In this document: in pieces, positions 30,131 to 63,791 of the stretch
How the letters are laid out: each line of letters starts with the position of its first letter
How positions within the stretch are numbered: position 1 is the stretch's first letter
Source of the DNA: Hyphomicrobiales bacterium
Lineage (GTDB): Bacteria > Pseudomonadota > Alphaproteobacteria > Rhizobiales > Beijerinckiaceae
Length of the DNA stretch: 64,000 bases
Assembly (NCBI GenBank): GCA_026400535.1
Contig: JAPLOU010000039.1
Location: forward strand, 1-64,000
Direction: 5' to 3'
Notes under the pieces: generated by a model
What the model was told of the DNA's origin: nothing
What the model saw: the letters and a program-made list of their open reading frames with translations, nothing else
Databases searched by the model: none
Made by a program: the position numbers and the translations under genes

Positions 30131-31117
30131 TCAGCGGCCGGGCCATGCGCTCCGCCAGGCTGCTGCCGTCAGTGCGCTGAGGGACTCCAGCATCGGAGTT
30201 GGAACGCCTGTGCGTTGCCCCAGTTCACAGACAGCGTCGACCAGCGCGCCCAGTTCGAGTGGGCGGCCCGCCTCATGATCCTGCAGCATCGAGGTCTTGA
30301 CGCCGGTCATTGCAGGATGGACGCTCAGCCTTGCCTCGACATCGGGCAACTGGCTGATACCGACCGAGCGGGCGACGGCGATGCATTCAAGCATGATTTT
30401 CCGCAGCACCTCCCTGAGCGCCGGGTCGGCGGCCATGGCATCGATGGTCGCACCCGTGAGCGCGGACACCGGGTTGAAACAGGCATTCCCCAGCAGCTTG
30501 TGCCAGATTTCAGCGCGGATATCAGACGTGGCTTCCGCATCGATGCCGCCTTGCCGCAACAGCTGCACCGTGTCCTCAAGACGGGGCGACACCGAACCTG
30601 CGGGCTCTCCGATGACCAGCCGCTTGCGTCCATTCCACCCGATGGCGTCCGGCGTTGTCCTGTTCGCCCCGATATAGACGACGCAGCCCAGCACCCGCGC
30701 GGTGTCGATCGACTGCCCGAGGCGGCCCGCAGGGTCGACCGCTGCGAGGCGCTCGTCGCCGTGCCGTCCACCAAGTCCCTCAAGATACCACCACGGAATG
30801 CCGTTCAGCATGGGAACGATGATCGTTGACGGGCCGATCAGGGGCATCACCAGCACGAGCCCGGCCTCCCAGTCATGGGCCTTGAAACCGACGAGGACGA
30901 GATCCTGAACGCCTGCGGCATGGGCATCATCGCAGACGCGGATCGGCATCGTGCGCGAAAATGCCGGCCCGGTCAGCGTCATGCCGCGGTGTTTCAGGAT
31001 GGCCGCTGTCTGCGGGCGGGCCACGATCAGCGGATCATGGCCCGCCTCCGCCAGATGCCACGCCACGACGCCGCCGATTGCGCCGGCACCAACAACGGCG
31101 ATCCGTCTACAAGCCAT
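30131..31117 (-). CDS. PanE/ApbA-family 2-dehydropantoate 2-reductase-like protein
   Basis: A 328-residue NADP-dependent 2-oxoacid reductase. It has an N-terminal Rossmann motif (RIAVVGAGAIGGVVAWHL), the catalytic-Lys segment LVGFKAHDWE near residue 80, the C-terminal-domain signature GNACFNPVSALTGAT near 210-225, and ELGALVDAVCELGQRTG near 290. It is last in a three-gene minus-strand operon behind a DUF6282-like hydrolase (11-base overlap) and a GlnQ ATPase. A pantothenate role is unlikely in this setting; reduction of a branched or imino 2-oxoacid from the amino-acid-like substrate of the region is more plausible. Confidence 0.82.
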   Translation of the reverse strand: MACRRIAVVGAGAIGGVVAWHLAEAGHDPLIVARPQTAAILKHRGMTLTGPAFSRTMPIRVCDDAHAAGVQDLVLVGFKAHDWEAGLVLVMPLIGPSTIIVPMLNGIPWWYLEGLGGRHGDERLAAVDPAGRLGQSIDTARVLGCVVYIGANRTTPDAIGWNGRKRLVIGEPAGSVSPRLEDTVQLLRQGGIDAEATSDIRAEIWHKLLGNACFNPVSALTGATIDAMAADPALREVLRKIMLECIAVARSVGISQLPDVEARLSVHPAMTGVKTSMLQDHEAGRPLELGALVDAVCELGQRTGVPTPMLESLSALTAAAWRSAWPGR

Positions 31118-32048
31118 TATCCGCTGTCCCTCCTGCTGTTGGTCGTGCCGCGCCGATCCCGAACAGGGCGGCAGGGTTTTGGCTGTTCATGCGCCGGATC
31201 GCCATCTCGTCGAAGTCCTCCGACTCCAGCAAAAGCATGAACTGGCGGAAGCTTTCGACGGGCGGAGCGAGCAGGACGATGCCGGCATCGCTGGAGACGA
31301 TCGCGCGGTCGCCCGCCGCACGGATGCGGGGCGCCAGATCCTGGATGGTCTGACCGGCAATGCGGTGCTGTTCGGGATCGGCATGGGTCAGTCCGACCTG
31401 CGTGGCGTGGGTGAGCGCGAAGAACGAGAATTCGCAGTAACCGCCCAGAGCGGCAATCTCGGCAATGGTCGCGGCATCGTAGCCGCCGCAATGGGTTCGC
31501 AAACGGGTCACGCCCCTGCGCCGGGCCTCCTGCGCCAGTGCAACCGCCTCCTTGCCATCGACATGGCCGCAGTCGAAGACAATGTCGCGTTCGGCGCACA
31601 GTTCCATGATCGCCGGCACAGGCTCGGGAACCCTGCCGCTTGCCGGCACGCAGAAGGTCGTCTCGAGAAAGGCGGGGCTGCGCCGCTCGCGCAGGGCGAC
31701 GGCGCGGGTGTGATGCGTCGGCAGCGACACAAAGCGCGCGCCTGTTCCCGGCCCGTAGCCATAGTCCACGGCATTTCTCGCCGCTTCATAGCTGATGCCG
31801 CCCGCGGTCGGCTGCATGATAAGGCCGCCGAAGACGTCGACGCCGAGATGACCCAGTTCCGCCATGGCCAGCGCGGCGTAGCCGGAAGAGTTCTGGAAAT
31901 TGTCCATGAGCCCGATCGCACGCATGCCAGCGGAAGCGGCCTGGCGGACCGATTCGAGCAGGTTGATGCGACGGCCATTGATGTGGGGGCATGTGTGAAC
32001 GTGGGCGTCGATTGCGCCGTTCAGATGCCGCATGCCATCGGTCATCAC
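31107..32048 (-). CDS. DUF6282-like metal-dependent hydrolase
   Basis: A 313-residue cytoplasmic TIM-barrel hydrolase of the amidohydrolase/PHP type. Metal-site motifs are visible: HxH (AIDAHVHTCPHINGRR near residue 12), VFDCGHVDGKEA near 180, RLRTHCGGYD near 205, and IVSSDAG near 270. This pattern fits proteins annotated DUF6282, whose reaction is not established. Its start lies 12 bases after the GlnQ stop, and ATGs at 32048, 32045 and 32033 are possible. It probably hydrolyses a cyclic amide, lactone or phosphoester in the same pathway. Confidence 0.75.
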   Translation of the reverse strand: MMTDGMRHLNGAIDAHVHTCPHINGRRINLLESVRQAASAGMRAIGLMDNFQNSSGYAALAMAELGHLGVDVFGGLIMQPTAGGISYEAARNAVDYGYGPGTGARFVSLPTHHTRAVALRERRSPAFLETTFCVPASGRVPEPVPAIMELCAERDIVFDCGHVDGKEAVALAQEARRRGVTRLRTHCGGYDAATIAEIAALGGYCEFSFFALTHATQVGLTHADPEQHRIAGQTIQDLAPRIRAAGDRAIVSSDAGIVLLAPPVESFRQFMLLLESEDFDEMAIRRMNSQNPAALFGIGAARPTAGGTADNGL

Positions 32049-32060
32049 GTCGCTCCGGTC

Positions 32061-32798
32061 TCAATGCCGCAGGATGCGGCGCACGAATTCCGCGCAGCGG
32101 GCCGTCTGCGGCGCATCGAAAATTTGCGCCGGCGGACCGACCTCGACCACCCGTCCGTCCGCCATGAAGACGACCTTGCTGGCGACCTCGCGCACAAAAC
32201 CCATCTCGTGGCTGACGATCAACATCGTCATTCCGTCGCTGGCCAGCAGGCGGATGGTGTCGAGGACTTCCGCGACAAGTTCCGGGTCTAGCGCCGAGGT
32301 GACTTCATCGAGCAAAAGGATGTCCGGGTTGAGCGCCAGCGCCCGCGCGATCGCGACGCGCTGTTGCTGCCCGCCCGACATTTCGTCGGGGTAGGCGTCG
32401 ATGCGGTGCGCCAGACCGACCTTGGTCAGCAAGGCCCTGGCCTCGCGCTCGACTTCAGCGGCAGGGCGCTTCTTCACAATGGTCGGCGCGATCGTGACGT
32501 TGCGCAGCGCCGTCATGTTCTGGAACAGGTTGTATTGCTGGAAGACGATGGCGAAACGGTCGCGCACCCGGCGCAGCGCTGCTGCGCTGCCATAGTCCAC
32601 CAGGTCGCCAGCGACTGCGACTGTTCCCGAGCGCGGCTTCAGCAGCCCGGTCAACACCCTGAGCAAGGTGCTCTTGCCCGACCCCGAGGGCCCGATCACG
32701 GCAACGATCTCGCCCCGTTCGACCATGAGGTCAACATCCTGCAGCACGGGGGTCGATCCATAGTCGGCACTCAGGCGCGTGATGGCGAGGTGAGGCAA
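32061..32798 (-). CDS. Amino-acid ABC importer ATPase, GlnQ/HisP type
   Basis: A 245-residue ATPase with Walker [16 protein letters not shown]-loop [16 protein letters not shown], signature [15 protein letters not shown] and Walker [16 protein letters not shown], all typical of polar amino-acid importers. The frame continues upstream without family similarity and no in-frame ATG or GTG fits. A TTG at 32798 with GGAG 7 bases upstream gives the normal family length, so I use it. It is the only such ATPase in the window, so it probably serves the two binding protein/permease sets at 39-44 kb. Its promoter region holds operator O1. Confidence 0.88.
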
Positions 32799-32941
32799 GA
32801 CATGTCTCCGGAGCGGCTCCCGGCGGATTGCCGGCGGGCAAGGATTAGAATCGCGTGGACGGAATGCCCAACTCCCGGTTGGCCGGACATCCCGTCCCGC
32901 TCTGCGGAAGGTGCGGGGGAGGTGACGAACCCGCTTGTCCT

Positions 32942-32962
32942 TTGTATACGTTACGTATGCAA
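32942..32962. promoter_or_regulatory. GntR-type operator O1
   Basis: Near-perfect inverted repeat TTGTATAC-N5-GTATGCAA (one mismatch) in the divergent control region of the GlnQ operon (minus) and the ornithine-cyclodeaminase-like gene (plus). It is the best of four similar sites in this region. Confidence 0.7.
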
Positions 32963-33068
32963 ACCAAGCATTGCCCCGTGGCGATGTCAATTGTGCCAGG
33001 AACAGCTCGGCTTGGCATCCGGCCCGACCGCCGCTGCTGGCATGGCATTGAGAACAAGGCGAAGTCAG

Positions 33069-34046
33069 ATGATGTTCCTGTCGGACCAGGATGTCGATGA
33101 CCTGCTGGACCCGGCGGCGCTGGTCGAGGCTCTAGCGGCGGGTTTCGCACGCCTGGCAGGGGGCGGCATGGCCGAGCCCGATTCTGTCCGCATGAACGGG
33201 CTTGGCGCGGGAAGCGGATACCTCACCCTGTTTCCGGCCCATGACGCGGCGACGGGGCTTGCGACCGCGAAGGTTCTGTTTGGCGATCCCGCCCGGACAC
33301 GCAGCGGCAAGTCGGAGATCGACGCCATTGTGGCTGTTGCCGATGCCCGGGCCGGGGAACTGGTCGCGCTCGTCGAAGCGCGCAGCCTGACGGCGCTGCG
33401 CACAGCGGCGACGTCGGCGCTTGCCGCAAGGGCGCTTGCCCGCCTCACCGGAATCGTCCTGCCGACGCAGGTCGGATTGGTCGGAACGGGCCGGCAGGCA
33501 CGCGCCCATGCCCGCGTCTTCACCGCGACGGGGCTTGCCGCCGGCTTCTTCGTGGCGTCTGCCGCCGGCAACACCGCCCGTTCGCAGGGGATGGTCGATT
33601 ATATCGCCGCCGCGACCGGCTTGCCGGCGCGCCGGCTGCAAGGGCCCGAGGCGGTCGCGGCTGAAGCCACGATCACGGTGACCGCGAGCCTTTCGGACGT
33701 GCCGTTGCTCAGCAAGCCAATCAAGCATGGGCATGTCCTGGCCTGCGTCGGCCCCTTCCTGCCCCAATCCCACGAGATTGCGCCCGAACTCGTTGCCGGT
33801 GCAGCTCTCGTCGTGTCGGATCATCCGCAGCGTCTCAGGCGGCAGTGGGCGGGGCAGCCCGCCGTTGAAAGCCTTGCGCCAGAGCGGCTCGTGTCGCTGG
33901 GGGACCTTCTTGCGGGTGCCGTTCCGGCCCCGCGGGCCGGTCATGTGCTGTTCCTGTCGGACGGGCGCGGGCTTGAGGACAATATCGCGGCCGGCCTGCT
34001 GTTGGCGGCTGCGCGCCGCCACAATCGTGGCCTGCCCCTGCGCTAG
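33069..34046 (+). CDS. Ornithine cyclodeaminase / mu-crystallin-family imine reductase
   Basis: A 325-residue protein with the family's N-terminal substrate domain (MMFLSDQDVDDLL) and a central Rossmann motif (VGLVGTGRQARAHARVF near residue 140), followed by VTASLSDVPLLSKP near 205. Such proteins reduce cyclic imines (pyrroline-2-carboxylate, piperideine-2-carboxylate), deaminate ornithine or make opine-like compounds. The ATG at 33069 begins the typical N-terminus; the frame is open upstream by chance. It ends 4 bases into the convergent dehydrogenase gene. Imine reduction would fit a neighbouring amino- or imino-acid dehydrogenase; this is inference. Confidence 0.85.
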   Translation: MMFLSDQDVDDLLDPAALVEALAAGFARLAGGGMAEPDSVRMNGLGAGSGYLTLFPAHDAATGLATAKVLFGDPARTRSGKSEIDAIVAVADARAGELVALVEARSLTALRTAATSALAARALARLTGIVLPTQVGLVGTGRQARAHARVFTATGLAAGFFVASAAGNTARSQGMVDYIAAATGLPARRLQGPEAVAAEATITVTASLSDVPLLSKPIKHGHVLACVGPFLPQSHEIAPELVAGAALVVSDHPQRLRRQWAGQPAVESLAPERLVSLGDLLAGAVPAPRAGHVLFLSDGRGLEDNIAAGLLLAAARRHNRGLPLR

Positions 34047-36967
34047 CTGCGCGCGCCGGCAAAGCGCGCCAGCGAGAAGATATCACTCGGCAGATCGGAT
34101 CGGCCACGCAACATCAGATCAGCGGTGATCCGCGCCACGACGGGCGCCAGCGAGTAGCCGTTCGACGTCACGCAATTGTAAAAGCCCGGTGCTCCCGGCA
34201 TCTCGCCCAAGATGGGCGCCCCGTCGATGTGGATATTCATGGCCGCCCAGACGCGGACAATGTTGAACGCCGCTGCCGCTGGCAACACATGCGCCGCAAC
34301 CCAGGCATTGCCCTCGATGCTTGCCATCTCGACCCGGCTGGCCCCGGTTTCGGGATCCATGGCGGCAGGCCAGGCCCCGCCGATGATCAATCCGCCGGTA
34401 TCCGCCTGCTTCAGACTGAGATGCCGGCCGGCATGGGCGATGAGATGACTGACCAGCTTCGGCCCCGGCTCAGTCACGATCATCTGCAAGGGCGCGCCGG
34501 AGACGGGAATCGGCGCTGCGGCCATGGCCGCGATCCGCGAAGCCCAACCGCCCGCGCAATTCACAACGCGGCGCGCCGCCACCGTGCCTGCCTCGGTCTC
34601 TATCCGCCAGCGCGTTCCGTCATGGGCCAGTCCGGTGACGCCGGCAAAGCTCTCGAAGCGCGCGCCCGCCAGCTGCGCCAGCCGGACCACGGCAAGCGTC
34701 GCCGTCAGTGGATTGATCTTGCCCTCGTCGCGGCAATAGGCGGCGCCGAGAAAGCGGGTTGCGAGATGCGGCTCAAGCGCACGAAGCTCGTTGGCGCCGA
34801 TGATGTTCGCATCAATGCCATAGCTGCGCTCAAGCTCGACCTTCTGGCGCAGGAAGCTCATCTCGTCTTCGGTCTCGCCGACCATCAGGCCGCCAGGGGT
34901 CGAGATCTCGAAATCCTCGGCTGCTGCCGCCTCGATGTCCTTCCACAGGCTGATGGCGGCAGGGGCGATTCGCAGAACCTCCGCTGCGGGTTGGCCGCCC
35001 GCCTCCGCCTTCTTGCCAAAGTCGAAGGACAGCAACTGCACATGCAGGCTGCCGGCATTGGCGCCGGAGGCCTGCACATTGGGCTCGTGGCGGTCGACCA
35101 CCACGACGCTCTCGCCAGCGAGAGCCAGTTCGCGCGCGACGCAGGCCCCGACCACGCCGGCTCCGATCACGACAGTGTCAGCCGTGAGCTGACCGAACGG
35201 CGCGCGTTGCAAGGCGATGCGCGGCGATCGCGCCGGTGGAACCGTCTGGCGATGGCCGCCCCATTCCGGCTTCTCAGCGGCGATCGCGCCCAGCGGCATC
35301 GGGCGCGCCGGCGGTCTGGGCGCAAAGAAGGCCGCTATGGCGGGGGCGGGACCGCCTTCCGCGTGGACAACACGCGTCAGCGTCGCCGCACAGAACCGGC
35401 CCTGGCAACGGCCCATGCCGGCGCGGGTCAGCCGCTTGACCGTGGCGAGTGTCGGCGAGCCGTTGCGACAGGCCTGGCGGGCGGCCCCAGCGGTCACCTC
35501 CTCGCAGCGGCACAGGATCGTGTCGTCGTCCAGCGCCGCGGCGTCGAAGGGCGCCTGCCGGAACACGTGCCACAGGCTCGCCTGGAAGGATTCGGCCCGG
35601 GCCAGCCTGATCCGGGCCCCCGCCAGATCGCCCACCTGTGGCAGGCCAAGGTCCCTCCTGATGGCGAAGGCTGCGAGTTCCGCACGCGCCATGGCAACCT
35701 TGGCCCCGGCGATTTGCGCACCGTCGCCGATCGCGTAGACGCCCGGCAGGCTGGTGAGGCCGTCCGCGTCGGTCACCACCATCAGGCCTCCGACATGGGT
35801 GTCGACGTGCCGCAATTCGCAACCAAGCTGGCGCGCCATCTCGGCCTGGGGGATGAAGCCGGCGTTCAGCGCGACGATATCGCAGGTGAGCTCATGGTCA
35901 GTGCCACCGTGGCTGACTGTGACGGCGCTCGCCTGATCCGTGCCATTGATGCGGCGCAGCCTTGCGTTCCACAGGACAGGCACACCTGAGAGCCGGAGGC
36001 GCGCGAGATAGCCAAGTCCGGTCAGGGTCGCAGTCGGATCGGCCTTGGCCATTCCGATCACGTGCGGAAGACTTGCGACAGAAGGCCCCGGTCCCTCATC
36101 AACCACAGCAACCGGTTTGCAGCCAAGCTTCAGCAACTCGACGGCCGTCTGCAGATTGAGCGGCCCCGAGCCGGCAATCACGATCCTCGCGCCGGGCACA
36201 ACCTGCTGCGAGCGCACCAGCCCCTGTAACCCGCCGGTCGTCATGACGCCGGGCACTGTCCAGCCGGGCAGGGGACATGGCCTTTCGGATGCGCCGGTGG
36301 CCAGAACCGTGATCCGCGGTTCGATGACATGGGCGCGGCCGTCATGAACGATGCCGATGCCGTCTTCCGCCGCTGCGAACCATGCCGTCGCGCCAGTCCA
36401 GATTTCGGCGCCGGAAGCGGCCAGTCGCCGCGCGAGCTCTTGCCCTTCCCGGAACTGCCTGTCCGGCTCTGCTTTTGCAGCGACCATAAGCGGCTTGTGG
36501 TACTGGCCGCCCACGCTGCCGCGCTCATCGCAGACCAGCACCGAGGCCCCGGCCTCGGCCAGCGAACTGGCAACCATTGCCCCGGCCGGCCCGGCACCGA
36601 CCACCAGCACGTCCACCTTGCGCCGGGGCAGCGGGGCGACTGGCATGGTGGCCAGCGGCAGGAGCTGGTCTGGCTCGGGCGCGGCGCTGGCGACGGTCAG
36701 CCCGGGTTTCGCCTTTTCGAGGCAGGCGCGCGTTCCGGCCCGCCCGTCGACCGTGACAATGCAGTCAAAGCATGCCCCCATGCCGCAGTGCAGTCCGCGG
36801 GGGGCGCCATTCCTTGTCTGCCGAAGGCTGATGACGCCGTTCTCGGCCAGAGCAGCCGCGATGGTCTGGCCGTCCCTGGCTGCAATCCTCCGCCCATCGA
36901 ACGCAAAGCTGAAGTGCGGGCCGGTCCTGGCTTCGGGGCCGTCCCCGAACGGCTCACTGTCGACCAT
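34043..36967 (-). CDS. Fused HcnABC-type flavin/iron-sulfur amino- or imino-acid dehydrogenase
   Basis: A 974-residue protein joining three subunits that are usually separate. Residues 15-100 form a 2Fe-2S domain (Cys61, Cys66, Cys69, Cys82). Residues 118-450 form a pyridine-nucleotide/FAD domain (GAGPAG at 124-129, YAIGDGAQIAG near 411), followed by a BFD-type 2Fe-2S motif (Cys486, Cys488, Cys521, Cys526). A D-amino-acid-oxidase-like FAD domain runs from 597 (GAGVVG at 602-607) to the end. Separate-gene relatives are hydrogen cyanide synthase, octopine/nopaline oxidases and D-hydroxyproline dehydrogenase. The last two fit better here, next to imine-reductase and DapA-like genes. It is divergent from the DapA-like gene across operator O2. 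Confidence 0.88.
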   Translation of the reverse strand: MVDSEPFGDGPEARTGPHFSFAFDGRRIAARDGQTIAAALAENGVISLRQTRNGAPRGLHCGMGACFDCIVTVDGRAGTRACLEKAKPGLTVASAAPEPDQLLPLATMPVAPLPRRKVDVLVVGAGPAGAMVASSLAEAGASVLVCDERGSVGGQYHKPLMVAAKAEPDRQFREGQELARRLAASGAEIWTGATAWFAAAEDGIGIVHDGRAHVIEPRITVLATGASERPCPLPGWTVPGVMTTGGLQGLVRSQQVVPGARIVIAGSGPLNLQTAVELLKLGCKPVAVVDEGPGPSVASLPHVIGMAKADPTATLTGLGYLARLRLSGVPVLWNARLRRINGTDQASAVTVSHGGTDHELTCDIVALNAGFIPQAEMARQLGCELRHVDTHVGGLMVVTDADGLTSLPGVYAIGDGAQIAGAKVAMARAELAAFAIRRDLGLPQVGDLAGARIRLARAESFQASLWHVFRQAPFDAAALDDDTILCRCEEVTAGAARQACRNGSPTLATVKRLTRAGMGRCQGRFCAATLTRVVHAEGGPAPAIAAFFAPRPPARPMPLGAIAAEKPEWGGHRQTVPPARSPRIALQRAPFGQLTADTVVIGAGVVGACVARELALAGESVVVVDRHEPNVQASGANAGSLHVQLLSFDFGKKAEAGGQPAAEVLRIAPAAISLWKDIEAAAAEDFEISTPGGLMVGETEDEMSFLRQKVELERSYGIDANIIGANELRALEPHLATRFLGAAYCRDEGKINPLTATLAVVRLAQLAGARFESFAGVTGLAHDGTRWRIETEAGTVAARRVVNCAGGWASRIAAMAAAPIPVSGAPLQMIVTEPGPKLVSHLIAHAGRHLSLKQADTGGLIIGGAWPAAMDPETGASRVEMASIEGNAWVAAHVLPAAAAFNIVRVWAAMNIHIDGAPILGEMPGAPGFYNCVTSNGYSLAPVVARITADLMLRGRSDLPSDIFSLARFAGARS

Positions 36968-36983
36968 TGCGCGTCACCTTGCG

Positions 36984-37004
36984 TTGCATACACACGATAT
37001 ACGA
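36984..37004. promoter_or_regulatory. GntR-type operator O2
   Basis: Inverted repeat TTGCATAC-N5-ATATACGA in the 78-base divergent region between the fused dehydrogenase (minus) and the DapA-like gene (plus). It has the same half-site and spacing as O1, with two mismatches in the right half. Confidence 0.55.
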
Positions 37005-37045
37005 CATAAGAGTTCCGGTGGTGAAGCGCTGCGGGGAGAACAGGC

Positions 37046-37951
37046 ATGCGACGTTTTCGCGGGACATACACGGTTCTGGTGACGCCGTTCACCGCTGACG
37101 GGAAAGCGGTCGATCTCGCGGCGCTGAAGCGGCTCGTCGAGTTCCAGATCGCCGAGGGCATCCACGGGCTGATCCCGCTTGGGTCAACCGGCGAGTTTCT
37201 GTCGGTGACGCCTGACGAACGCACCGCAATCGTCGAAACCGTGGTGCGCACGGCGGGCGGACGCGTGCCGGTGCTGATCGGCACCGGGGCGGAATGGACG
37301 CGCGACGCCATCGCGACCTCGCGTGAGGCGGAGGCGCTCGGCGCCGATGGCGTGATGATCATCCCGCCCTTCTACAGCGTCCCCACCGAGGACGAGTTGT
37401 ATGAGCACTACAAGGCGGTCGCAGACGCCATTTCGATCCCGATCATGGTCTACAACAATCCCGCCACGGCCAATGTCGACCTGAGGCCGGATTTTGTCGC
37501 GAGATTGTCGAACATCCCGAACTGCAGCTACATCAAGGAGTCGACGCTGGACGTCACGCGCGTCCGCGACATCGTGCGCCTGTGCGGCGACCGGATGACC
37601 GTGTTCGCGGGCGTGCTGGGCTTCGAGTCGTTCTGGCTCGGCGCCGAAGGCTGGGTCGCGGTCTGCTCGAACGTGGCGCCGCGGCTGTCGGCGCAATTGT
37701 TCGAGGCGTCCGTCGATCGGCGTGATCTGGATGAAGGCACCGCCGTGCACCGCAAGCTTCTGCCATTACTGCCCCATGTCGGAGGCCCGCGGTATGTCTC
37801 CGGGACAAAGGCCGCCTTCGAGATGATGGGCATGCCGATGGGGCCGCCGCGCGCTCCGCGCCTGCCCCTGCCCGAACGCGACCGTCCGGCGCTGCGGCAG
37901 GTTCTGGCCGGGATGGGCCTGTTGCCGGCGGCGTCGGCTGCGGCCAACTAG
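37046..37951 (+). CDS. DapA-superfamily lyase (DHDPS/NAL-like) A
   Basis: A 301-residue class I aldolase or deaminase. It has the typical N-terminus RGTYTVLVTPF, the signature PLGSTGEFLSV at residues 44-54, catalytic Tyr136 (MVYNNPAT) and Schiff-base Lys164 (SYIKEST). Length and motifs fit N-acetylneuraminate-lyase/DapA relatives, including 1-pyrroline-4-hydroxy-2-carboxylate deaminase of hydroxyproline breakdown. It is transcribed from the O2 region, divergent from the fused dehydrogenase. A role downstream of that dehydrogenase is likely, since deaminase or aldolase action on the oxidised imine is known in the hydroxyproline pathway. The stop overlaps the convergent hydrolase gene by 4 bases. 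Confidence 0.85.
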   Translation: MRRFRGTYTVLVTPFTADGKAVDLAALKRLVEFQIAEGIHGLIPLGSTGEFLSVTPDERTAIVETVVRTAGGRVPVLIGTGAEWTRDAIATSREAEALGADGVMIIPPFYSVPTEDELYEHYKAVADAISIPIMVYNNPATANVDLRPDFVARLSNIPNCSYIKESTLDVTRVRDIVRLCGDRMTVFAGVLGFESFWLGAEGWVAVCSNVAPRLSAQLFEASVDRRDLDEGTAVHRKLLPLLPHVGGPRYVSGTKAAFEMMGMPMGPPRAPRLPLPERDRPALRQVLAGMGLLPAASAAAN

Positions 37952-38985
37952 GCGGAAATGGTCAGCAGACGGCGCGGCGTGTCGACCAGCAAGGTGTCGA
38001 TCTCGCTCTCCTGCCAGCCGCGATCCCGCATCAGCGGGCGCAGATTGGCGAGGATATGCCGGTAGCCATGGCCGCCATGCGCCAGAAGCCGCGTCAGTGT
38101 GCAGATGTCATGCGAGATGCAGACACGGTCCTGCAGGCCGGCGTCGAACAGCGCCCGCAAGGCCCTGATCCGCATCCAGTCATTCGGCAGGTCGACGATC
38201 CCCATCCAGTAGTTCGACGTCTCGATGCCGAAGAAGTCGTATTCGACGACGCAGCGCCGCGCGAGGGCGAGCACGGCGTCGACGTCCTCCGGATGGGTGC
38301 GATCCATGTGGCTCATGATCACCCGCGACAGGTCCGCGCCGGCGCGCTCCAGCACATCGCAGATCTGCATACAGGCCAGCGGATGGCGGCCCGGATGCAC
38401 GTTGATCGCTGCGCCCGTGGCGCCTTGCGCCTGCGCTGCCGCCGTGAGACTGCGTTCCTCGAACTCCGTCATCGGCCATGACACACCGATCTCGCCGATG
38501 ATGCCGCAACGGATCGATGTGCCCCATGCTCCTTCGCTCACCTGTCCGATGATCGTCTCGGCCAGTCGCTCGACCGGCCAGGCCTTGATGTCGTCGCTCG
38601 CATAGCTGTCGGTGTAGAAGCCGGCCCCCAGAACGATGGTGACACCGGTGCGCTCCGACAGGCGCTTCAGGCCTTCTGGGTTCGGACCGATGCCGCCCGT
38701 TGTCAGATCGACGACCGTGCCGCCGCCGGCCTGCCGGAAGGCCGCGAGGTCCATGGCCGCGACATCCTCGTCATGCAGGCGATGATGGCCCGGCACCATC
38801 GGTCGGTAGTCGAGCGCGAAGCGCGTCGACAGTGTGATGTCCAGCACAGGTGGCGGATCGGCGCGCCAGGCTGGGTTGGTGAGGTCGCACAGCACATGTT
38901 CATGCATGAGGACATGGCCGAGCTGCTCAGGGGCGACCGGTCCGGCAACGGAAATCGCCTCGGCCCGTCTGCGCGGTCTTGTCAT
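37948..38985 (-). CDS. Phosphotriesterase-family metal-dependent hydrolase
   Basis: A 345-residue TIM-barrel amidohydrolase of the PTE/lactonase family. The binuclear metal motif LMHEHVLCD (His28, His30) is near the N-terminus. GAAINVHPGRHPL, VIMSHMDRTHPED and RVCISHDICT supply the later His and Asp ligands. Members hydrolyse lactones, phosphotriesters or N-acyl compounds. The frame is open to 39060, but the ATG at 38985 begins the conserved part. It is divergent from the binding-protein gene, with operator O3 between them. With dehydrogenases and imine enzymes nearby, a lactone or amide intermediate is the most likely substrate. Confidence 0.83.
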   Translation of the reverse strand: MTRPRRRAEAISVAGPVAPEQLGHVLMHEHVLCDLTNPAWRADPPPVLDITLSTRFALDYRPMVPGHHRLHDEDVAAMDLAAFRQAGGGTVVDLTTGGIGPNPEGLKRLSERTGVTIVLGAGFYTDSYASDDIKAWPVERLAETIIGQVSEGAWGTSIRCGIIGEIGVSWPMTEFEERSLTAAAQAQGATGAAINVHPGRHPLACMQICDVLERAGADLSRVIMSHMDRTHPEDVDAVLALARRCVVEYDFFGIETSNYWMGIVDLPNDWMRIRALRALFDAGLQDRVCISHDICTLTRLLAHGGHGYRHILANLRPLMRDRGWQESEIDTLLVDTPRRLLTISA

Positions 38986-39039
38986 TGTCTGCCGTCTTTC
39001 TCGTTCCGGGGTGATCCTGCTTGCCCATCGCATCCTATT

Positions 39040-39060
39040 CGGCATACGCTGTGCATACAA
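39040..39060. promoter_or_regulatory. GntR-type operator O3
   Basis: Inverted repeat CGGCATAC-N5-GCATACAA between the phosphotriesterase-like gene (minus) and the binding-protein operon (plus). The right half is close to consensus; the left half matches five of eight positions. Confidence 0.5.
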
Positions 39061-39199
39061 TCATCCCGAACCGGGCGAGCGCTGGCGCATCTTCCGGTTC
39101 CGGGCAGGTTTTTGACGTCGCCGTCGCACTGCGCGCGGGCCTGCTTCGGCTCCAGTCGCGTGTTTTTGTTTCACATCCAACGATCACGGAGGCTACCAC

Positions 39200-40057
39200 A
39201 TGACCAAGACCCTTTCCGGACCATCAGGCTTGATTTCCCGCCGCGGCCTCATGCTCGCGGCCGGCGCAGCCGGACTGCTGCCGCGCGCCGCCATGGCGCA
39301 GGCGAAGGTGGCTGCGGCCAATCTGATCAAGCCTGGCACGCTGGTGATGTCGATGAACCCGACCCTTCCGCCGTTGCAGTTCGTCGATGACCGGGGTCAA
39401 CTGCAGGGCATGCGCTGGGAACTGGGCAATGAAATCGCCAAGACCCTTGGCCTCACGCCGGAATATGTGCGGATCGAGTTCGCCGCCATGGTTCCGGGCC
39501 TCGCCGCCAAGCGCTGGGACATGATCAACACGGGCATCTTCTGGACCGAGGAGCGCTCAAAGCTGATGTACATGGTGCCCTATGAGCGCGCGGCAGTCAG
39601 CTTCCTTGCCGCGCGCGGCAATCCACTCAAGATCGAGAAGTGGGAAGACCTCGCCGGCAAGGCGGTCTCGGTCGAACTCGGCGGGATCGAGGAGCGGCGG
39701 ACCCGGGAAGTCGACGCCATGCTGAAGGCCAAGGGACTGGCGGGCATCGACATCCGCACCTTCAACAACTTTGCCGAATCCTTCCAGGCCCTGCGCGCCG
39801 GGCAGGTGCAGGCCGCGACGGCCATCGACGCGACGGCCATGTTCATGCAGACGCGCGGCGACTTCACGCGTGCGGTCGCCGGCCTGTTCCCGCAGGTGGC
39901 AACCTTTGCCTTTGCCAACAAGGTGCTGGCAGAAGCCGTCGTGGGTGCGCTCAATGACCTCAAGACGTCTGGATACTACGACACGCTGTTCGACAAGTAC
40001 GGCGTGCTCAAGATCGAGGGATCAGCCTTCAAGATCGACGGTCCGGGACCAGTCTGA
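39200..40057 (+). CDS. Amino-acid-type ABC substrate-binding protein 1
   Basis: A 285-residue periplasmic binding protein of the SBP_bac_3 family. It has a Tat-like signal (ISRRGLMLAAGAAGLLPRAAMA, cleaved near residue 33). The mature part shows MSMNPTLPPLQFVDDRGQLQGM near 48, WDMINTGIFWTEERSKLMYM near 98 and WEDLAGKAVSVELGG near 150. It delivers an amino acid or similar small ligand to the permease encoded 102 bases downstream. Expression is probably controlled at O3. The ligand is unknown. Confidence 0.9.
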   Translation: MTKTLSGPSGLISRRGLMLAAGAAGLLPRAAMAQAKVAAANLIKPGTLVMSMNPTLPPLQFVDDRGQLQGMRWELGNEIAKTLGLTPEYVRIEFAAMVPGLAAKRWDMINTGIFWTEERSKLMYMVPYERAAVSFLAARGNPLKIEKWEDLAGKAVSVELGGIEERRTREVDAMLKAKGLAGIDIRTFNNFAESFQALRAGQVQAATAIDATAMFMQTRGDFTRAVAGLFPQVATFAFANKVLAEAVVGALNDLKTSGYYDTLFDKYGVLKIEGSAFKIDGPGPV

Positions 40058-40093
40058 CGCCGCAGTCCGACAACTCCGGCAGCGACCTGATGC

Positions 40094-40122
40094 GGGATCG
40101 ACGGGGCAAGGCCCTCGATCCC
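40094..40122 (+). terminator. Hairpin between binding-protein and permease genes
   Basis: GGGATCGA (40094-40101) pairs perfectly with TCGATCCC (40115-40122), and an inner GGG/CCC extends the stem around a GCAAGG loop. No U-tract follows, so it is better seen as an attenuator or an mRNA-stabilising stem that raises binding-protein over permease levels. Confidence 0.45.
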
Positions 40123-40159
40123 CTGTCGGTCGCGCCTCCAGACACGAAGGAGCGGCTGC

Positions 40160-40867
40160 ATGCGCGTATGGAACTGGGAGGGATTTTTTGGCTATTTCGC
40201 CAATCCCTATCTGCTGCAAGGTGCTCTCGTCACCCTGTTTCTGACCGCTTCGACACTGCTGTTCGGCTTCATCCTTGGACTGGTCCTGACCTTGATGCGG
40301 TTGTCGCCGAACAGGTTCATCCAGGGGGTGGCCAAGACCTATGTCTGGGTGTTCCGGGGCACACCCTTGCTGGTGCAATTGATCATCATCTACACCGGAC
40401 TGCCGCAGCTGGGCCTCGTCAGGCTCAGCGTGCTGCAATCGGCCATGGTGGGTCTGGCGCTGAACGAGGCGGCCTACCTGTCGGAGATTCTCCGCGGCGG
40501 CATCCTTTCGGTTGGCCAGGGCCAGCGTGACGCGGCCCGCTCCCTCGGTCTGAAGCGCGCGCAGGGCTTCTATCTCATTGTCATGCCCCAGGCGCTGCGG
40601 GTGGTGATCCCGACGCTCGGCAACTCGGTGAACGGACTTCTGAAGACCACCTCGATCGCCTCCGTGATCTCGATGGAGGAGCTGCTGCGTCGTGGACAGA
40701 TCCTCATGCAGCAGCGCTTCGAGGTCCTGGAGGTCTTCATGGTGGTGGCGATCCTCTATCTGGCGATGACAACGGTCTGGGATGCGGTGCAGCGCCGGAT
40801 CGAAGCGCATTACGGCAAGGCCTATGGACCTGTGATCAACAAGCTGCAGACCCGCGATGACCATTGA
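40160..40867 (+). CDS. Amino-acid ABC importer permease 1
   Basis: A 235-residue HisM/GlnP-type permease with about five helices. The start of the transmembrane core shows YLLQGALVTLFLTASTLLFG, the family motif TYVWVFRGTPLLVQL lies near residue 72, and the EAA loop (QRDAARSLGLKRAQGFYLIVMPQALR) near 115-150 has been split here for clarity. It lies after binding protein 1 and the hairpin, and before the GntR gene. Only one permease accompanies this binding protein, so it probably works as a homodimer with the GlnQ ATPase encoded at 32 kb. Confidence 0.9.
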   Translation: MRVWNWEGFFGYFANPYLLQGALVTLFLTASTLLFGFILGLVLTLMRLSPNRFIQGVAKTYVWVFRGTPLLVQLIIIYTGLPQLGLVRLSVLQSAMVGLALNEAAYLSEILRGGILSVGQGQRDAARSLGLKRAQGFYLIVMPQALRVVIPTLGNSVNGLLKTTSIASVISMEELLRRGQILMQQRFEVLEVFMVVAILYLAMTTVWDAVQRRIEAHYGKAYGPVINKLQTRDDH

Positions 40868-40917
40868 CATGAGGCTGTCGCAACGTCTTGGGTCGAGCTA
40901 TCACAAGGTCAAAGCCG

Positions 40918-41604
40918 ATGAACACCACGCGGGCGACTGAAGATCAGGACCATCAGCCAGACGAACAGCGCTTCATGGCCGGCCTTAACCTGTCCAATCT
41001 TGCCTACCGCGCCATTTCCGAGATGATCCGGGATCGGCGCCTCAAGGGTGGCGAGCAGATTGTCGAGGCAAGACTGGCCGATGTGCTTGGAATCTCGCGC
41101 ACGCCTCTGCGTGAGGCGCTCCAGCGACTGGAAGGCGAGGGGCTTGTGCGCAAGTTCGCCAACCGCTCCTATCTGGTGCGCAGCGTGGACCTGGCCGAGT
41201 ACCTCCACAGCCTGAAGGTCCGCGAGATCCTCGAGGCGGAGGCGGCCGCGCTTGCCATCGGGCGCATTCCCCGGGAGCTGATGGCGGTTGTCCGCCATGA
41301 AATCGTGGAGCTTCGCGCCTCGACGACCTACCACACCGCATCGCATTGGCAGTCCGACGATAACCTGCATGGCGCCTACATCAACCATTGCGGCAATCCG
41401 GTGATCGGCGAACTCATCAACGCCCTGCGCGTGACGACGCGGCTTTTCGAGATCGCCAAGCTGAAGGATCGTCTCGAGCCTGATTCCGTCGAGCACCTGG
41501 CGATTCTCGGCACGCTTGAAGCGGGTGACGCCAAGGCCGCGCGTCAGGCCGTGACAGCCCATATCCGCAGCCTTCGGGATTTCGCGCTCGCAACCGTCCG
41601 CTGA
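40918..41604 (+). CDS. GntR-family (FCD domain) regulator of the amino-acid region
   Basis: A 228-residue regulator. The winged helix (residues about 25-85) contains RRLKGGEQIVEARLADVLG, then ISRTPLREALQRLEGEGLV. The FCD domain follows with metal-ligand-like residues (LHGAYINHCGNP near 145, AHIRSLRDF near the end). The ATG at 40918 is preferred to an upstream GTG-type frame start because the conserved part begins soon after it. It is co-transcribed with binding protein 1 and permease 1. It is the best candidate to bind operators O1-O4, which would make it autoregulated through O3. Confidence 0.9.
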   Translation: MNTTRATEDQDHQPDEQRFMAGLNLSNLAYRAISEMIRDRRLKGGEQIVEARLADVLGISRTPLREALQRLEGEGLVRKFANRSYLVRSVDLAEYLHSLKVREILEAEAAALAIGRIPRELMAVVRHEIVELRASTTYHTASHWQSDDNLHGAYINHCGNPVIGELINALRVTTRLFEIAKLKDRLEPDSVEHLAILGTLEAGDAKAARQAVTAHIRSLRDFALATVR

Positions 41605-41654
41605 CGGGCAGCGGACGTTCAGCGTCCGCGAAAGCGCTTGCCGTCCTGCGCGGA

Positions 41655-41675
41655 TTGTACAACAATCGTATACAA
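41655..41675. promoter_or_regulatory. GntR-type operator O4
   Basis: Inverted repeat TTGTACAA-N5-GTATACAA, 24 bases before the second binding-protein start. The right half is the exact consensus. This is the fourth site of the shared set, here controlling the eight-gene operon that runs to 48988. Confidence 0.6.
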
Positions 41676-41698: not shown

Positions 41699-42541
41699 AT
41701 GACTGATCACATCACGCAGCGCGTTTCGCGCAGGAGCCTGCTCGCAGGCGTCGCCGCGGGGACGGCGGGGGCCCTTCTCGGGCTTGAGGCGATGGCCAAA
41801 CCGCTGGCCGACGTGCTCGCCGGCAAGAAGCTGCGGGCCGGCATCAATCCGACCCTGCCACCGTTCGGCGTCTTCAACGCCCAGAACCAGATTGACGGCT
41901 TCGATGCCGACATTGCCCGCGAGATCGCGCGGCTGATGAAGGTCGAGTGCGAGATCGTGCAGGTCGGCAGCCCAGACCGAATCCCGTTCCTGCAAGCCGA
42001 TCGGATCGACATCGTGCTTGGCGCCATCACCCGCACGGTCGAGCGCGCCCTGGTGATCGACTACACGGTGCCGCTGCACACCCAGAGCGTCGTGGTTCTG
42101 ACCAAGGCCAGCGGCACGAGCGTGCCGATCAACAAGCCGGCAGACCTTGCCAATGCCCAGGTCAAGCTGGTTCAGGTGCGCGGCACTGTCGGCATTCCCT
42201 GGATTCAGGCCAATGCTCCGCAGGCGCAGGTCACCTTGCTCGACAATTACCCCGATACGTTCCGCGCGCTCCAGCAGGGCCGGGCGGATGCCATGGTCGA
42301 CGTGCTGGAATCGGTCGTCGTACCGATGAAGAACTTCCCGGGTGTGCCCTGGAAGGTGCTCGACGAGGTGCTTGCCAGCACATGGGTCGGCATCGGGGTG
42401 CAGAAAGGCAACACGACGCTCAAGGACGTGCTGAACGTCGTGCTGTTTGAAATGCACCGCAACGGCTTTGTCGGCACCACCTGGGAGAAGTGGTTTGGCG
42501 TGCCGATGAAGACACCGGTTCCCGTCAACCCGATGTTCTGA
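41699..42541 (+). CDS. Amino-acid-type ABC substrate-binding protein 2
   Basis: A 280-residue SBP_bac_3 protein with a Tat-like signal (VSRRSLLAGVAAGTAGALLG). The mature protein shows KLRAGINPTLPPFGVF, then ARLMKVECEIVQVGSPDRIPFL and a LPLHTQSVVVL-like hinge region. The ATG at 41699 is preferred over 41678 because AGAAGG lies 8 bases upstream. It is the first gene of an operon with two permeases and the three-gene dehydrogenase, so its ligand is probably that enzyme's substrate. It is divergent in sequence from binding protein 1, suggesting a different or related ligand. Confidence 0.9.
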   Translation: MTDHITQRVSRRSLLAGVAAGTAGALLGLEAMAKPLADVLAGKKLRAGINPTLPPFGVFNAQNQIDGFDADIAREIARLMKVECEIVQVGSPDRIPFLQADRIDIVLGAITRTVERALVIDYTVPLHTQSVVVLTKASGTSVPINKPADLANAQVKLVQVRGTVGIPWIQANAPQAQVTLLDNYPDTFRALQQGRADAMVDVLESVVVPMKNFPGVPWKVLDEVLASTWVGIGVQKGNTTLKDVLNVVLFEMHRNGFVGTTWEKWFGVPMKTPVPVNPMF

Positions 42542-42572: not shown

Positions 42573-43241
42573 ATGCAGCTGCAGTACGGACAGGTCGTCG
42601 GCTACGTTCCCGATTTCCTTCTGGGTGCGGCGATCGCGCTCAGCATCGCCTTTCTCGCCTTCGCCCTCGGCATGCTGATCGGCCTCGCCGGAGCAAGCAT
42701 CAACGCCTATGGACCAAGGCCCGCGCGGCTTGCCGTCAGGGCCTATGTCAGCTTTTTCACCAATACGCCGCAGCTCGTGCAGATCTTCTTCCTGTTCTTT
42801 GCCCTGCCGGAGTTCGGCATCCTGCTCACCCCGATCCAGGCCGTCCTGATCGGCATGACGCTGAACGCCGGCGCCTATCTCACCGAAATCCAGCGCGCCG
42901 GCTTCCAGTCATTGCCGCAGGCCGAGATCGAGGCGGCTGAGACGCTCGGCTTCTCACGGTTGCAGACCATCCGCCATGTGATCGCGCCCCATATCGTCAA
43001 GGCGCTCTATCCATCCCTCTCGAACCAGTACATCATCATGACGCTCGGGACCTCGATGGCGGCGATCTTTGGCGTGGAGGAGCTGACGGCGCGGGCCTTG
43101 AACGCCAATGCTGTGAGCTTCCGCTCGATCGAGATCTTCACGCTGACGGCCGGCATCTACATCGTCCTGACGATTGTTGCCTCCGCTCTGCTCTACAGCG
43201 TCGGCCGCGGCCTGTTCCGGGTCAAGGCGAGGGCGTTCTGA
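42573..43241 (+). CDS. Amino-acid ABC importer permease 2a
   Basis: A 222-residue HisQ/GlnP-type permease. Motifs are LLGAAIALSIAFLAFALG, then RAYVSFFTNTPQLVQIFF near residue 58 and the EAA loop AEIEAAETLGFSRLQTIRHV near 105-125. About five membrane helices are visible. The stop overlaps the next permease's start by one base. Together the two permeases would form the heterodimeric channel for binding protein 2. Confidence 0.9.
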   Translation: MQLQYGQVVGYVPDFLLGAAIALSIAFLAFALGMLIGLAGASINAYGPRPARLAVRAYVSFFTNTPQLVQIFFLFFALPEFGILLTPIQAVLIGMTLNAGAYLTEIQRAGFQSLPQAEIEAAETLGFSRLQTIRHVIAPHIVKALYPSLSNQYIIMTLGTSMAAIFGVEELTARALNANAVSFRSIEIFTLTAGIYIVLTIVASALLYSVGRGLFRVKARAF

Positions 43242-43960
43242 TGGGTGCGCTGCAGCAACTCGCTCAGGAAGCGCCGCGTTTCTTCACCTACTGGAACATG
43301 ATGTTCCTGGGGCAGGCGGCGCTCAACACCTTGCTGGTGTCCTTCATCGGTTGTGCTCTTGGCTATCTGATCGGCTTCGTGATCGCGACGCTGAGGCTGC
43401 CGAGGGTCATGCCGGTTGCCCCGGTCAGGGCTGTGCTGATCGCCTGGACAGAAGCCATCCGACGGATCCCCTTCCTTGTGCTGCTGATGTGCGTCTTCTT
43501 CGCCTTTCAGCTGTCCGGCGCCAACCAGACCCTGTTCGTGATCGCCGTTGCCGCTGTCACCCTGCGCATGTCGGCCCTGGCAGCCGAGAATGTCCGGGCC
43601 GGCTACGAGGCCGTTCCGGCACGGCAGTGGGAAGCCGCGGAGGTGCTGAACATTCCACCCGTCCAGACGCTGTTCCGCATCATCCTGCCGCAAGCCTGGA
43701 AGGTGATCCTGCCGCCATCGACCATCCATGCCGTCAGCATGATCAAGGAGACCTCGCTGGTTTCGCAGATCGGGTTCCTGGAGCTGACCTTCGCAGCCCG
43801 CATGCTGAATCAGCGCGGGTTCTCGGCCTTGATCTGCTTTGGCACCATCCTGATCCTGTACTTCGTCATTTCCTGGTCGTTCGGACGGATCGGTCACTAC
43901 GCGGAGCGCCGGCTGGTCACGCAGGCGCGCGGCGCGCGGCATCTGGCCAGACCGTTGTGA
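43241..43960 (+). CDS. Amino-acid ABC importer permease 2b
   Basis: A 239-residue partner permease with QAALNTLLVSFIGCALGYLI near the first helix, IRRIPFLVLLMCVFFAF near residue 75 and the EAA loop ARQWEAAEVLNIPPVQTLFR near 125-145. The usual GTP/RTP motif of the family is weaker (AIRRIPFL), as is common in the second permease of a pair. It ends just before the small 2Fe-2S subunit gene, so transport and oxidation are coexpressed. Confidence 0.88.
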   Translation: MGALQQLAQEAPRFFTYWNMMFLGQAALNTLLVSFIGCALGYLIGFVIATLRLPRVMPVAPVRAVLIAWTEAIRRIPFLVLLMCVFFAFQLSGANQTLFVIAVAAVTLRMSALAAENVRAGYEAVPARQWEAAEVLNIPPVQTLFRIILPQAWKVILPPSTIHAVSMIKETSLVSQIGFLELTFAARMLNQRGFSALICFGTILILYFVISWSFGRIGHYAERRLVTQARGARHLARPL

Positions 43961-43962
43961 CC

Positions 43963-44226
43963 ATGCAGGAGACCGACACATCGATCGAACTCGTGCTTGA
44001 CGGTCAGCCGATCCGTGTCAGCGCCCATGGTAGCGTGGCCGGCGCCCTGCTGGAAGCCGGCGTCGCCTGGCTCCGGTCGAGCCCGCGCGCGCACGGGCCG
44101 CGCGGTGCCTTCTGCTTCATGGGGGTCTGCCAGGAATGCGCGATCGTGATCGACGGTCGTCGCCAGCAGGCCTGTCTCGTCACCCCGCGCGCGGGAATGA
44201 CAATCGAGCGCGGCGGTGTGCGATGA
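43963..44226 (+). CDS. Small 2Fe-2S subunit of an HcnABC-type dehydrogenase (HcnA-like)
   Basis: An 87-residue plant-ferredoxin-like protein with Cys51, Cys56, Cys59 and Cys71 (AFCFMGVCQECAIVIDG, then QQACLV), the spacing of sarcosine-oxidase-alpha N-terminal / HcnA-like domains. It corresponds to residues 15-100 of the fused protein at 34-37 kb. A GTG at 43957 overlaps the permease stop and is an alternative start. It carries electrons between the two flavin subunits encoded next. Confidence 0.88.
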   Translation: MQETDTSIELVLDGQPIRVSAHGSVAGALLEAGVAWLRSSPRAHGPRGAFCFMGVCQECAIVIDGRRQQACLVTPRAGMTIERGGVR

Positions 44227-48988: not shown

Positions 48989-49078
48989 TGCGATCGGCGC
49001 TCAAGGCTGCATGCCGCATTCACAACTCGACTTTGGAAATCAGGGCTCACATGATCATCGGACAAGGCGGGGGTGTTC

Positions 49079-54374: not shown

Positions 54375-54387
54375 GCCGTCAACGCCG

Positions 54388-56127: not shown

Positions 56128-56172
56128 GGCTGGTCTCGTGCGTTGTCGGCTTCGGGTTGGGTTGTGGTGCGC

Positions 56173-57885: not shown

Positions 57886-57911
57886 CGTGCTCTTCCCTGT
57901 GCAGGCTTTTT

Positions 57912-61783: not shown

Positions 61784-61822
61784 GTCAGCGTCCTCGCCCT
61801 GTCCGGTTCCATGAACCCTGCA

Positions 61823-63514: not shown

Positions 63515-63621
63515 GACCCTGGACACTCCCCATGTTTCGACGTTGTCTGACCGACAGAAATCGGAAATCTGCGCCTGATTGAAGCACACCCCGGCAATTT
63601 GTAAATCCGTATTCGCGGCAC

Positions 63622-63642
63622 TGTGTAGACAGTCTGTACACA
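63622..63642. promoter_or_regulatory. Inverted repeat upstream of the peptide-uptake operon
   Basis: TGTGTA-N9-TACACA with an inner AGAC-A-GTCT, seen directly, 108 bases before the binding-protein start. It differs from O1-O4 and has no local regulator gene. It is a plausible operator. Confidence 0.45.
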
Positions 63643-63791
63643 ATCGGCGCAGTCGGCCATGCGCGCAACGCAGCACCATCCGGTTCCCGGGCGCTTGGCG
63701 AAGCATCCTGTGCCGAACGGGCGCCTCGACACGGGCGCCTCACAGCGCAGGAAGGTCCGGCATGGCGGCGAGGAGCATCCGTGTGTCGATG

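Follow-up and report, generated by a model that had tools for sequence, protein, structure and literature searches.

Regulators of the FadR subfamily of the GntR family follow an operator consensus of TKGT/ACMA, with GT and AC 2–3 nt apart, and the part of the survey cited here describes weaker extra boxes 7–12 nt from the operator centre as common (PMC4494728). The VanR-type FCD repressor Atu1419 of Agrobacterium fabrum, which represses a catabolic region, binds a 10-mer, ATGTATACAT, with a GT-N2-AC box and loses binding when G3 is changed; in its own promoter region, two palindromes are separated by 190 bp and a tetramer forms a loop between them, as the excerpted account has it (PMC7797058). 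In Escherichia coli, NanR places several dimers on closely spaced GTATA-type repeats, three GGTATA copies, and carries an N-terminal stretch before its DNA-binding domain, according to the available portion of that report (PMC8012715). HypR of Sinorhizobium meliloti heads an amino-acid catabolic GntR regulon, a kind often autoregulated in the cited passages (PMC5343134). Here we describe a candidate regulon of this general type in a Hyphomicrobiales bacterium (assembly GCA_026400535.1), in a stretch of 64,000 nucleotides of contig JAPLOU010000039.1 (positions 1 to 64,000; hereafter the window), where a GntR regulator with an FCD domain lies inside a catabolic gene cluster that contains four sites of one 21-bp pattern (Table 1).

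Each half of these sites (TTGTATAC type) is a GT-N2-AC unit, the same box as that of Atu1419, but the half centres are 11 bp apart rather than 190. Like NanR, the regulator would place more than one dimer on neighbouring boxes, here two near-palindromic boxes instead of three repeats, and about 20 residues of low model confidence precede its DNA-binding domain. In contrast to the weaker extra boxes of FadR-subfamily operators, the two boxes here are about equally strong, and it is the pair that is conserved as a unit. It is highly likely that the four sites are operators of this FCD protein in a system of two-dimer repression with release by a ligand, taken as one joint reading. Judged from sequence comparisons, the locus very probably houses a genuine local control circuit of ordinary type, a GntR/FCD catabolic regulon.

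Four recurring sites at the control regions of one gene cluster

A preliminary description of the window had proposed four sites with matching spacing and half-sites, all intergenic and three of them between divergent genes, and the letters were confirmed at all four coordinates. The divergent junctions are those of operators 1 to 3; operator 4 is the sole co-directional case, with the FCD regulator gene followed by the gene for substrate-binding protein 2 (SBP2). The four sites are imperfect copies of one motif. Lying 5' of SBP1, permease 1 (perm1) and the FCD gene, operator 3 would give autoregulation of the regulator.

The window and the source genome (3.79 Mb, 100 contigs, 93.66% complete) were scanned with pattern A (TTGYATAC-N5-RTATRCAA, up to three mismatches), and the genome also with pattern B (TTGYATRC-N5-GTATRCAA, up to two), with each reversed pattern as control. 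In the window, pattern A gave 10 strand hits, at five places, whereas 100 dinucleotide shuffles averaged 0.25 strand hits; the fifth place is a weak match at 63623–63643, within the 5' portion of the coding sequence of an SBP_bac_5 gene. Across the genome it matched at 11 places, four of them operators 1–4 (strand hits, 9 forward and 9 reverse; reversed control, 5 and 4), and at up to two mismatches it matched only operators 1, 2 and 4, the site at 39040 having three. Pattern B matched five places in the genome (reversed control, 1 and 1), namely operators 1–4 and C28:39152, which sits after a thiolase-like reading frame and has no FCD gene match within the 3 kb examined. The motif scan proposed in the preliminary description has been run, and with both patterns equally good matches are not scattered through the genome. 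With leave-one-out matrices, the held-out sites at 32942, 36984, 39040 and 41655 ranked third, fourth, fifth and fourth among all window 21-mers; only training sites stood above them, except that 63623 beat 39040 and nearly equalled 41655.

A genome collection yielded 63 loci with relatives of the regulator, including loci from Bosea, Phreatobacter, Methylobacterium, Roseomonas, Rhizobium, Agrobacterium, Stappia, Devosia, Azospirillum and Marinibacterium, and there was one distant spirochaete match at 29% identity. Bosea sp. AAP35 is among the carriers of the system (L048/L070). Thirty of these loci, together with 11 others that hold a regulator orthologue (L042–L052), make up the 41 clade loci used here (754 kb in total; regulator orthologue 50–81% identical). 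The 33 left out comprise L055 and L056, which are near-identical to the window, seven duplicates of the 11, L076, L117, 18 loci of Rhizobium/Agrobacterium/Stappia type that carry a second FCD gene alongside, and four loci at 44–45% identity; L106 and L114 were kept though they hold a second FCD gene. In L055 and L056 (FCD protein 95% and 94% identical), all four sites stand at equivalent junctions. Sites equivalent to operator 1 stand at a corresponding junction in these two loci and L042, and operator 2 is conserved in these three as well as in L058 and L060. Operator 3 is conserved in L042, L058 and L060, and operator 4 in L042, L058, L059 and L060. Junction alignments show operators 2–4 conserved within poorly conserved flanks; the rows for operator 1 are too alike overall to tell site conservation from flank conservation.

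A recurrence matrix built from the four window sites alone, with the spacer ignored and a threshold score of 14, found 69 sites in the clade loci (19 in the 11 loci L042–L052 and 50 in the other 30). Arbitrary control DNA (400 kb in 20 stretches of 20 kb from seven of the clade's own genomes, G009, G020, G033, G008, G015, G019 and G057, a set without stretches from the genomes of the 30 named loci) gave none at this threshold and one at threshold 12. At least one site was present in 37/41 clade loci and in 0/20 control stretches. An earlier control of 23 loci (L004, L005, L008–L011, L026–L041 and L053; 95 kb) was set aside, since a pattern match or the presence of an FCD gene had been the reason for choosing most of them. 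At the clade's size, this set would correspond to 87.6, 55.8, 47.8, 23.9, 8.0 and 0 sites at thresholds 12, 14, 16, 18, 20 and 22, against 96, 69, 45, 30, 19 and 14 observed, with no separation below threshold 20. None of 200 column-permuted half-site matrices reached the observed count at any of the six thresholds, and at score 16 the N5 spacer gave 45 hits, whereas the sixteen alternative spacer lengths between 0 and 16 gave 0 to 10 each.

When hits are merged over a wider distance, 66 sites remain instead of 69. Of these, 58 precede the start of a homologue of a cluster gene by no more than 350 bp, and most by no more than 110 bp. The targets are SBP2 (23 sites), the FCD gene (15), DapA1, HydA and DH_A (six each, those of DH_A all more than 320 bp away), the phosphotriesterase (PTE)-family gene, SBP1 and the fused dehydrogenase (five each), GlnQ (four), M20 (three), and the ornithine cyclodeaminase (OCD)-family gene, DapA2 and Fer2 (one each). 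In 15 cases, a site in a relative precedes the estimated start of the regulator gene itself by 6–172 bp.

Presence of the pathway was also compared with presence of the regulator. Among genus genomes, the DAO subunit of the split dehydrogenase is present at 76% identity or above in 11/11 with a regulator orthologue, the source genome included (76–82% in the other ten), and in 0/26 without one, where only three DAO matches, at 46–47%, were obtained at E 1e-80 or better. G045, which belongs to another family and is 84% complete, has a DAO subunit at 71% and no close regulator match. As the regulator and DAO genes are linked, this co-occurrence shows joint travel and not regulation. Near-exact sites (0–1 mismatch) are found in the cluster in 8 of the 11 regulator-bearing genus genomes, elsewhere in at least two of them (G009 and G034), and in 3 of the 26 genus genomes lacking the regulator (G013, G023 and G028), where they share a different-looking type. 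The local regulon of the FCD regulator at 40918 that the preliminary description had put forward gains support from the orthologue loci, through recurring sites, the same types of target genes and shared occurrence in genus genomes. A different recurring palindrome, approximately TTGCATACG-N3-CGTATGTCA, is present in several genus genomes without the regulator (e.g. G012:C1:2348638, G022:C17:837134 and G025:C1:390259), perhaps as the operator of another regulator.

The regulator carries both a GntR winged helix (PF00392, 1.5e-13, 50.6 bits) and an FCD domain (PF07729, 1.6e-16, 61.3 bits), each over its Pfam cut-off, which is the domain combination of the FadR subfamily; it scores below every NCBIfam cut-off. 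Its AlphaFold2 model (mean pLDDT 86.7) predicts an effector domain of six helices (residues 92–112, 119–134, 140–156, 161–181, 190–202 and 205–227), a number that we take to mark the VanR group, into which the predicted protein fits. Residues D147, D148, H151, H193 and H215 are invariant in 12 orthologues and are candidate FCD metal ligands. The fold match of lowest E is 6za3, the Atu1419–DNA complex (24% identity, TM-score about 0.6), and 3ihu reaches a higher TM-score (0.75/0.83). Orthologues were found in 11 of 60 relatives (81%, 65–70% and 55% identity), and the next match below them is at 38%.

Operator architecture and proposed control

The architecture was examined by a matrix-free dyad count that took in 37.7 kb of non-coding DNA upstream of genes, in 198 stretches from the 41 loci. 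GTATAC came top among inverted dyads (38 against 1.1 expected, in 29/41 loci), TTG-N15-CAA was enriched (21 against 5.8, in 17 loci), as were the cross-box dyads TTG-N11-TAT, TTG-N12-ATA and GTA-N12-ACA, and dyads that join the two boxes across one turn ranked among the best overall. Across 55 sites, conservation is 97% at the box G, 86% at the box C, 70–74% at the outer T and 62% for an A at position 0, outside the matrix; as these sites were hand-picked via the matrix, the column frequencies are partly circular. The boxes read GT-AT-AC or variants, consistent with the TKGT/ACMA form of the FadR subfamily. Since known FCD dimer sites are short and each half contains a GT-N2-AC unit, two side-by-side dimers are preferred, and two GTATAC boxes spaced by one helical turn are a more probable reading of the operator than a single long inverted repeat. 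The sites and N5 spacing of the preliminary description are borne out; its single inverted repeat is probably better read as paired dimer boxes.

In the mechanism that we propose, the FCD protein of 40918–41604 would bind the four sites as operators, each offering two GT-N2-AC boxes of about 10 bp with centres 11 bp apart, so that two dimers would lie on one face of the DNA. From positions within or near core promoters, they would repress the regulator's own operon, both importers and the ATPase that these share, the fused and split dehydrogenases, the DapA-like lyases and the hydrolases. Binding of the imported compound or of a catabolite would release the repressor. The distance from operator centre to gene start is 27 bp for the fused dehydrogenase, 34 bp for SBP2, 52 bp for DapA1, 65 bp for the PTE-family gene, 117 bp for OCD, 150 bp for SBP1 and 151 bp for GlnQ, and these short distances favour repression by blocking of the core promoter. 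In aligned rows that include the relatives, a CTTG element stands 18–20 bp before operators 3 and 4. We take this element to be the alphaproteobacterial -35 box; at that spacing, the -10 box would fall within the first GTATAC box.

Alternative explanations

Both architecture and origin of the sites admit other readings. A single dimer could contact the outer TTG/CAA ends and so cover the full 21-bp inverted repeat, as the independent enrichment of TTG-N15-CAA and the conservation of the outer T positions would allow, but this is rather unlikely: the GTATAC box is itself the strongest element in the dyad count, the inner C is conserved no less than the outer T, and the DNA-bound solved relative takes a 10-bp site per dimer in the excerpted account (PMC7797058). 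GTATAC is also a short palindrome in its own right, of the kind that chance could supply in intergenic DNA. A chance match was rejected on the shuffles, the permuted matrices, the arbitrary control loci and the spacer test, and with the dyad counts and junction alignments added, the probability of chance palindromes is negligible. Returning to two-dimer repression by the FCD protein, several observations weigh against it. A scan for sigma-70 consensus promoters gave nothing beside operators 2–4 and a single sigma-70-like promoter near operator 1, which does not overlap the site; as the scan gave no overlap, the repression model rests on the distances and the CTTG element. Four of the 41 clade loci have no site at score 14, four of the 66 merged sites lie inside matched coding sequence, and four more have no cluster gene nearby. 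In the window outside 30–50 kb, one site, the coding place 63623, reaches score 14, and some AAA/TTT pairs (3–6 loci) and TAC-N13-GTA outrank TTG-N15-CAA. The clade loci have a common ancestry and the regulator gene is linked to those of the pathway, so that neither the site counts nor the co-occurrence can be treated as independent events. In addition, the source genome holds 14 matches to the regulator, itself included, and the same two-box architecture is found near other FCD genes, so that another family member could bind some of the sites.

These last two points underlie the reading that the sites belong to a paralogous FCD/GntR protein and that the 40918 regulator answers to something else. 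We regard this as improbable: relatives repeatedly carry sites just upstream of the regulator's own start (the 15 cases above), a search of the window and of genus loci L042–L051, at the limits used, revealed no second FCD gene, and the next relative in the genome, 36% identical, is on another contig, where its 10-kb stretch (L144) has no two-box site. Elsewhere, a second FCD gene (33–39% identical) stands divergent from the orthologue in 18 loci (e.g. L082, L087–L095) and in L138 and L139. Most second-FCD loci carry TGGTATACCA-type boxes with partner boxes 11 bp away, not attributed to either regulator; among the 18, such sites are absent in L078, L079, L092 and L116. The second protein mostly has Gly for Gln in the recognition-helix region (ALGRL versus ALQRL), paired with TGGT versus TTGT. 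On contig C8 of G034, GTATGC-N5-GCATGC (L145, 7952–7976) lies beside a different FCD gene, at the junction with an amidase-like gene and at or inside its 5' end. On S. meliloti pSymB, GCATAC-N5-GTATAC and ATATAC-N5-GTATAC are present at 11623 and 13411 of L141, a region in an unannotated record that we take to be hyp by location and gene content; these pairs suggest an operator of like architecture for HypR. Paired boxes of this shape seem to be shared by a broader group of FCD regulators, and with like sites near other FCD genes, shape alone is not diagnostic of the 40918 regulator.

The S. meliloti boxes also speak for the regulator being an orthologue of HypR and the cluster a 4-hydroxyproline utilisation system, as does the likeness of the DAO-type dehydrogenase, DapA-type lyase, amino-acid ABC importer and ornithine-cyclodeaminase-family gene to the HypR regulon as outlined in the cited passages (PMC5343134). 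Against this stand an S. meliloti FCD protein that matches over 96 residues only (36% identical), a DapA-like protein 31% identical, with DapA and DAO enzymes at about 25–31%, and the lack of a racemase or epimerase in the cluster. The one proline-racemase-family gene (PF05544) of the genome is outside the cluster on contig C88; it is 74% identical to a racemase-family gene of the S. meliloti hyp region, and no two-box site was found in the surrounding 20 kb. HypR identity was rejected on the partial match, the divergent DapA and DAO enzymes and the missing epimerase, and is very unlikely. The Streptomyces HypR operator, in the part of its description cited here, is unlike the paired boxes of this locus (PMC6608401). 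A literature search of open-licence PMC titles, limited to best matches and with subscription papers outside its scope, returned none describing this regulon.

The gene cluster and its candidate substrate

The gene names of the preliminary description are confirmed in outline by Pfam (Table 1), and NCBIfam scores are mostly below cut-off, with DapA-like 1 an exception. The fused and split dehydrogenases have the same main domains: Fer2, an FAD-NAD reductase with SO_alpha_A3, and DAO. In the window no ATPase gene follows either importer (SBP1-perm1 and SBP2-perm2-perm3), and a GlnQ-type ATPase is positioned behind operator 1. In relatives, GlnQ comes directly after perm3 (L043, L044 and L047) or perm1 (L052). 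As the ATPase stands apart from the importers here and beside them in relatives, a shared operator would raise importers and ATPase together. HyuB/HyuA-type hydantoinase/oxoprolinase genes at 49073–52916, after the M20 gene, are possibly part of the same operon and pathway. Further on, 52974–63706 holds an M20 dipeptidase-like gene on the forward strand, then, on the reverse strand, an M28 peptidase gene, genes of an oligopeptide-type ABC importer and an SBP_bac_5 gene.

Table 1. Candidate operators, regulator and cluster genes in the window
Feature	Position	Strand	Sequence, location or basis
Operator 1	32942..32962		TTGTATAC-N5-GTATGCAA; GlnQ/OCD intergenic region
Operator 2	36984..37004		TTGCATAC-N5-ATATACGA; fused dehydrogenase/DapA-like 1 intergenic region
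Operator 3	39040..39060		CGGCATAC-N5-GCATACAA; PTE-like gene/SBP1-perm1-FCD intergenic region
Operator 4	41655..41675		TTGTACAA-N5-GTATACAA; 5' of SBP2
GntR regulator with FCD domain, 228 aa, proposed binder	40918..41604	+	Pfam, NCBIfam, fold match
Ketopantoate-reductase-like protein (ApbA), likely in GlnQ operon	30131..31117	-	Profile match
DUF6282 amidohydrolase-like protein, likely in GlnQ operon	31107..32048	-	Profile match
GlnQ-type ABC ATPase	32061..32801	-	Below the equivalog cut-offs shown
Ornithine cyclodeaminase/mu-crystallin family protein (imine reductase of the preliminary description)	33069..34046	+	Pfam; below every listed NCBIfam cut-off
Fused [2Fe-2S]/FAD-NAD/DAO dehydrogenase, 974 aa	34043..36967	-	Pfam, NCBIfam
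DapA-superfamily lyase 1	37046..37951	+	Pfam; NCBIfam dapA, 213.8 against a cut-off of 206.15 bits
Phosphotriesterase-family hydrolase	37948..38985	-	Pfam PTE, 6.4e-70; best solved relative 9efa
Substrate-binding protein 1 (SBP_bac_3)	39200..40057	+	Pfam, NCBIfam
Permease 1	40160..40867	+	Pfam
Substrate-binding protein 2 (SBP_bac_3)	41699..42541	+	Pfam
Permeases 2 and 3	42573..43960	+	Pfam
Split dehydrogenase: Fer2, FAD-NAD and DAO subunits	43963..46735	+	Pfam, NCBIfam
DapA-superfamily lyase 2 and M20 deacylase, after the split dehydrogenase	46732..48988	+	Profile matches

Searches of solved structures with DapA1, the fused dehydrogenase, the PTE-family enzyme and SBP1 named no substrate. The closest solved sequence to the PTE-family enzyme, 9efa, is named only phosphotriesterase-related protein; PTER, which 9efa may be, is reportedly an N-acetyltaurine hydrolase (PMC11374699). 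A homologue of the hydantoinase of L044, itself over the NCBIfam cut-off for dihydropyrimidinase, occurs in 19 of the 41 loci, with a site upstream in six, and a carbamoylase-family amidase like that of L050 occurs in four. Relatives on Aureimonas and Azospirillum plasmids have an annotated dihydropyrimidinase gene in the cluster, and the window has the downstream HyuB/HyuA-type genes instead of a dihydropyrimidinase-type hydantoinase. The gene content suggests an amino-acid-like or cyclic-ureide substrate. After its import, a hydrolase would open this compound, the DAO enzymes would oxidise it, and a DapA-type lyase would carry out a cleavage or deamination.

We tentatively raise the possibility that these regulators form an undescribed alphaproteobacterial FCD family with paired dimer sites one turn apart, controlling an undescribed catabolism of a natural cyclic ureide or N-acylated amino acid. 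If this is so, the FCD family would govern a pathway made up of importers, fused and split DAO-type dehydrogenases, DapA-type lyases, phosphotriesterase-family and M20 hydrolases and, often, a hydantoinase. The proposed regulon joins about a dozen loosely annotated genes, present in varying subsets in the 41 loci, which come from many alphaproteobacterial genera, into one pathway, and it offers a regulator, an operator and a testable inducer assay for finding the substrate. The paired-box operator may likewise be of use for studying the side-by-side binding of FCD regulators.

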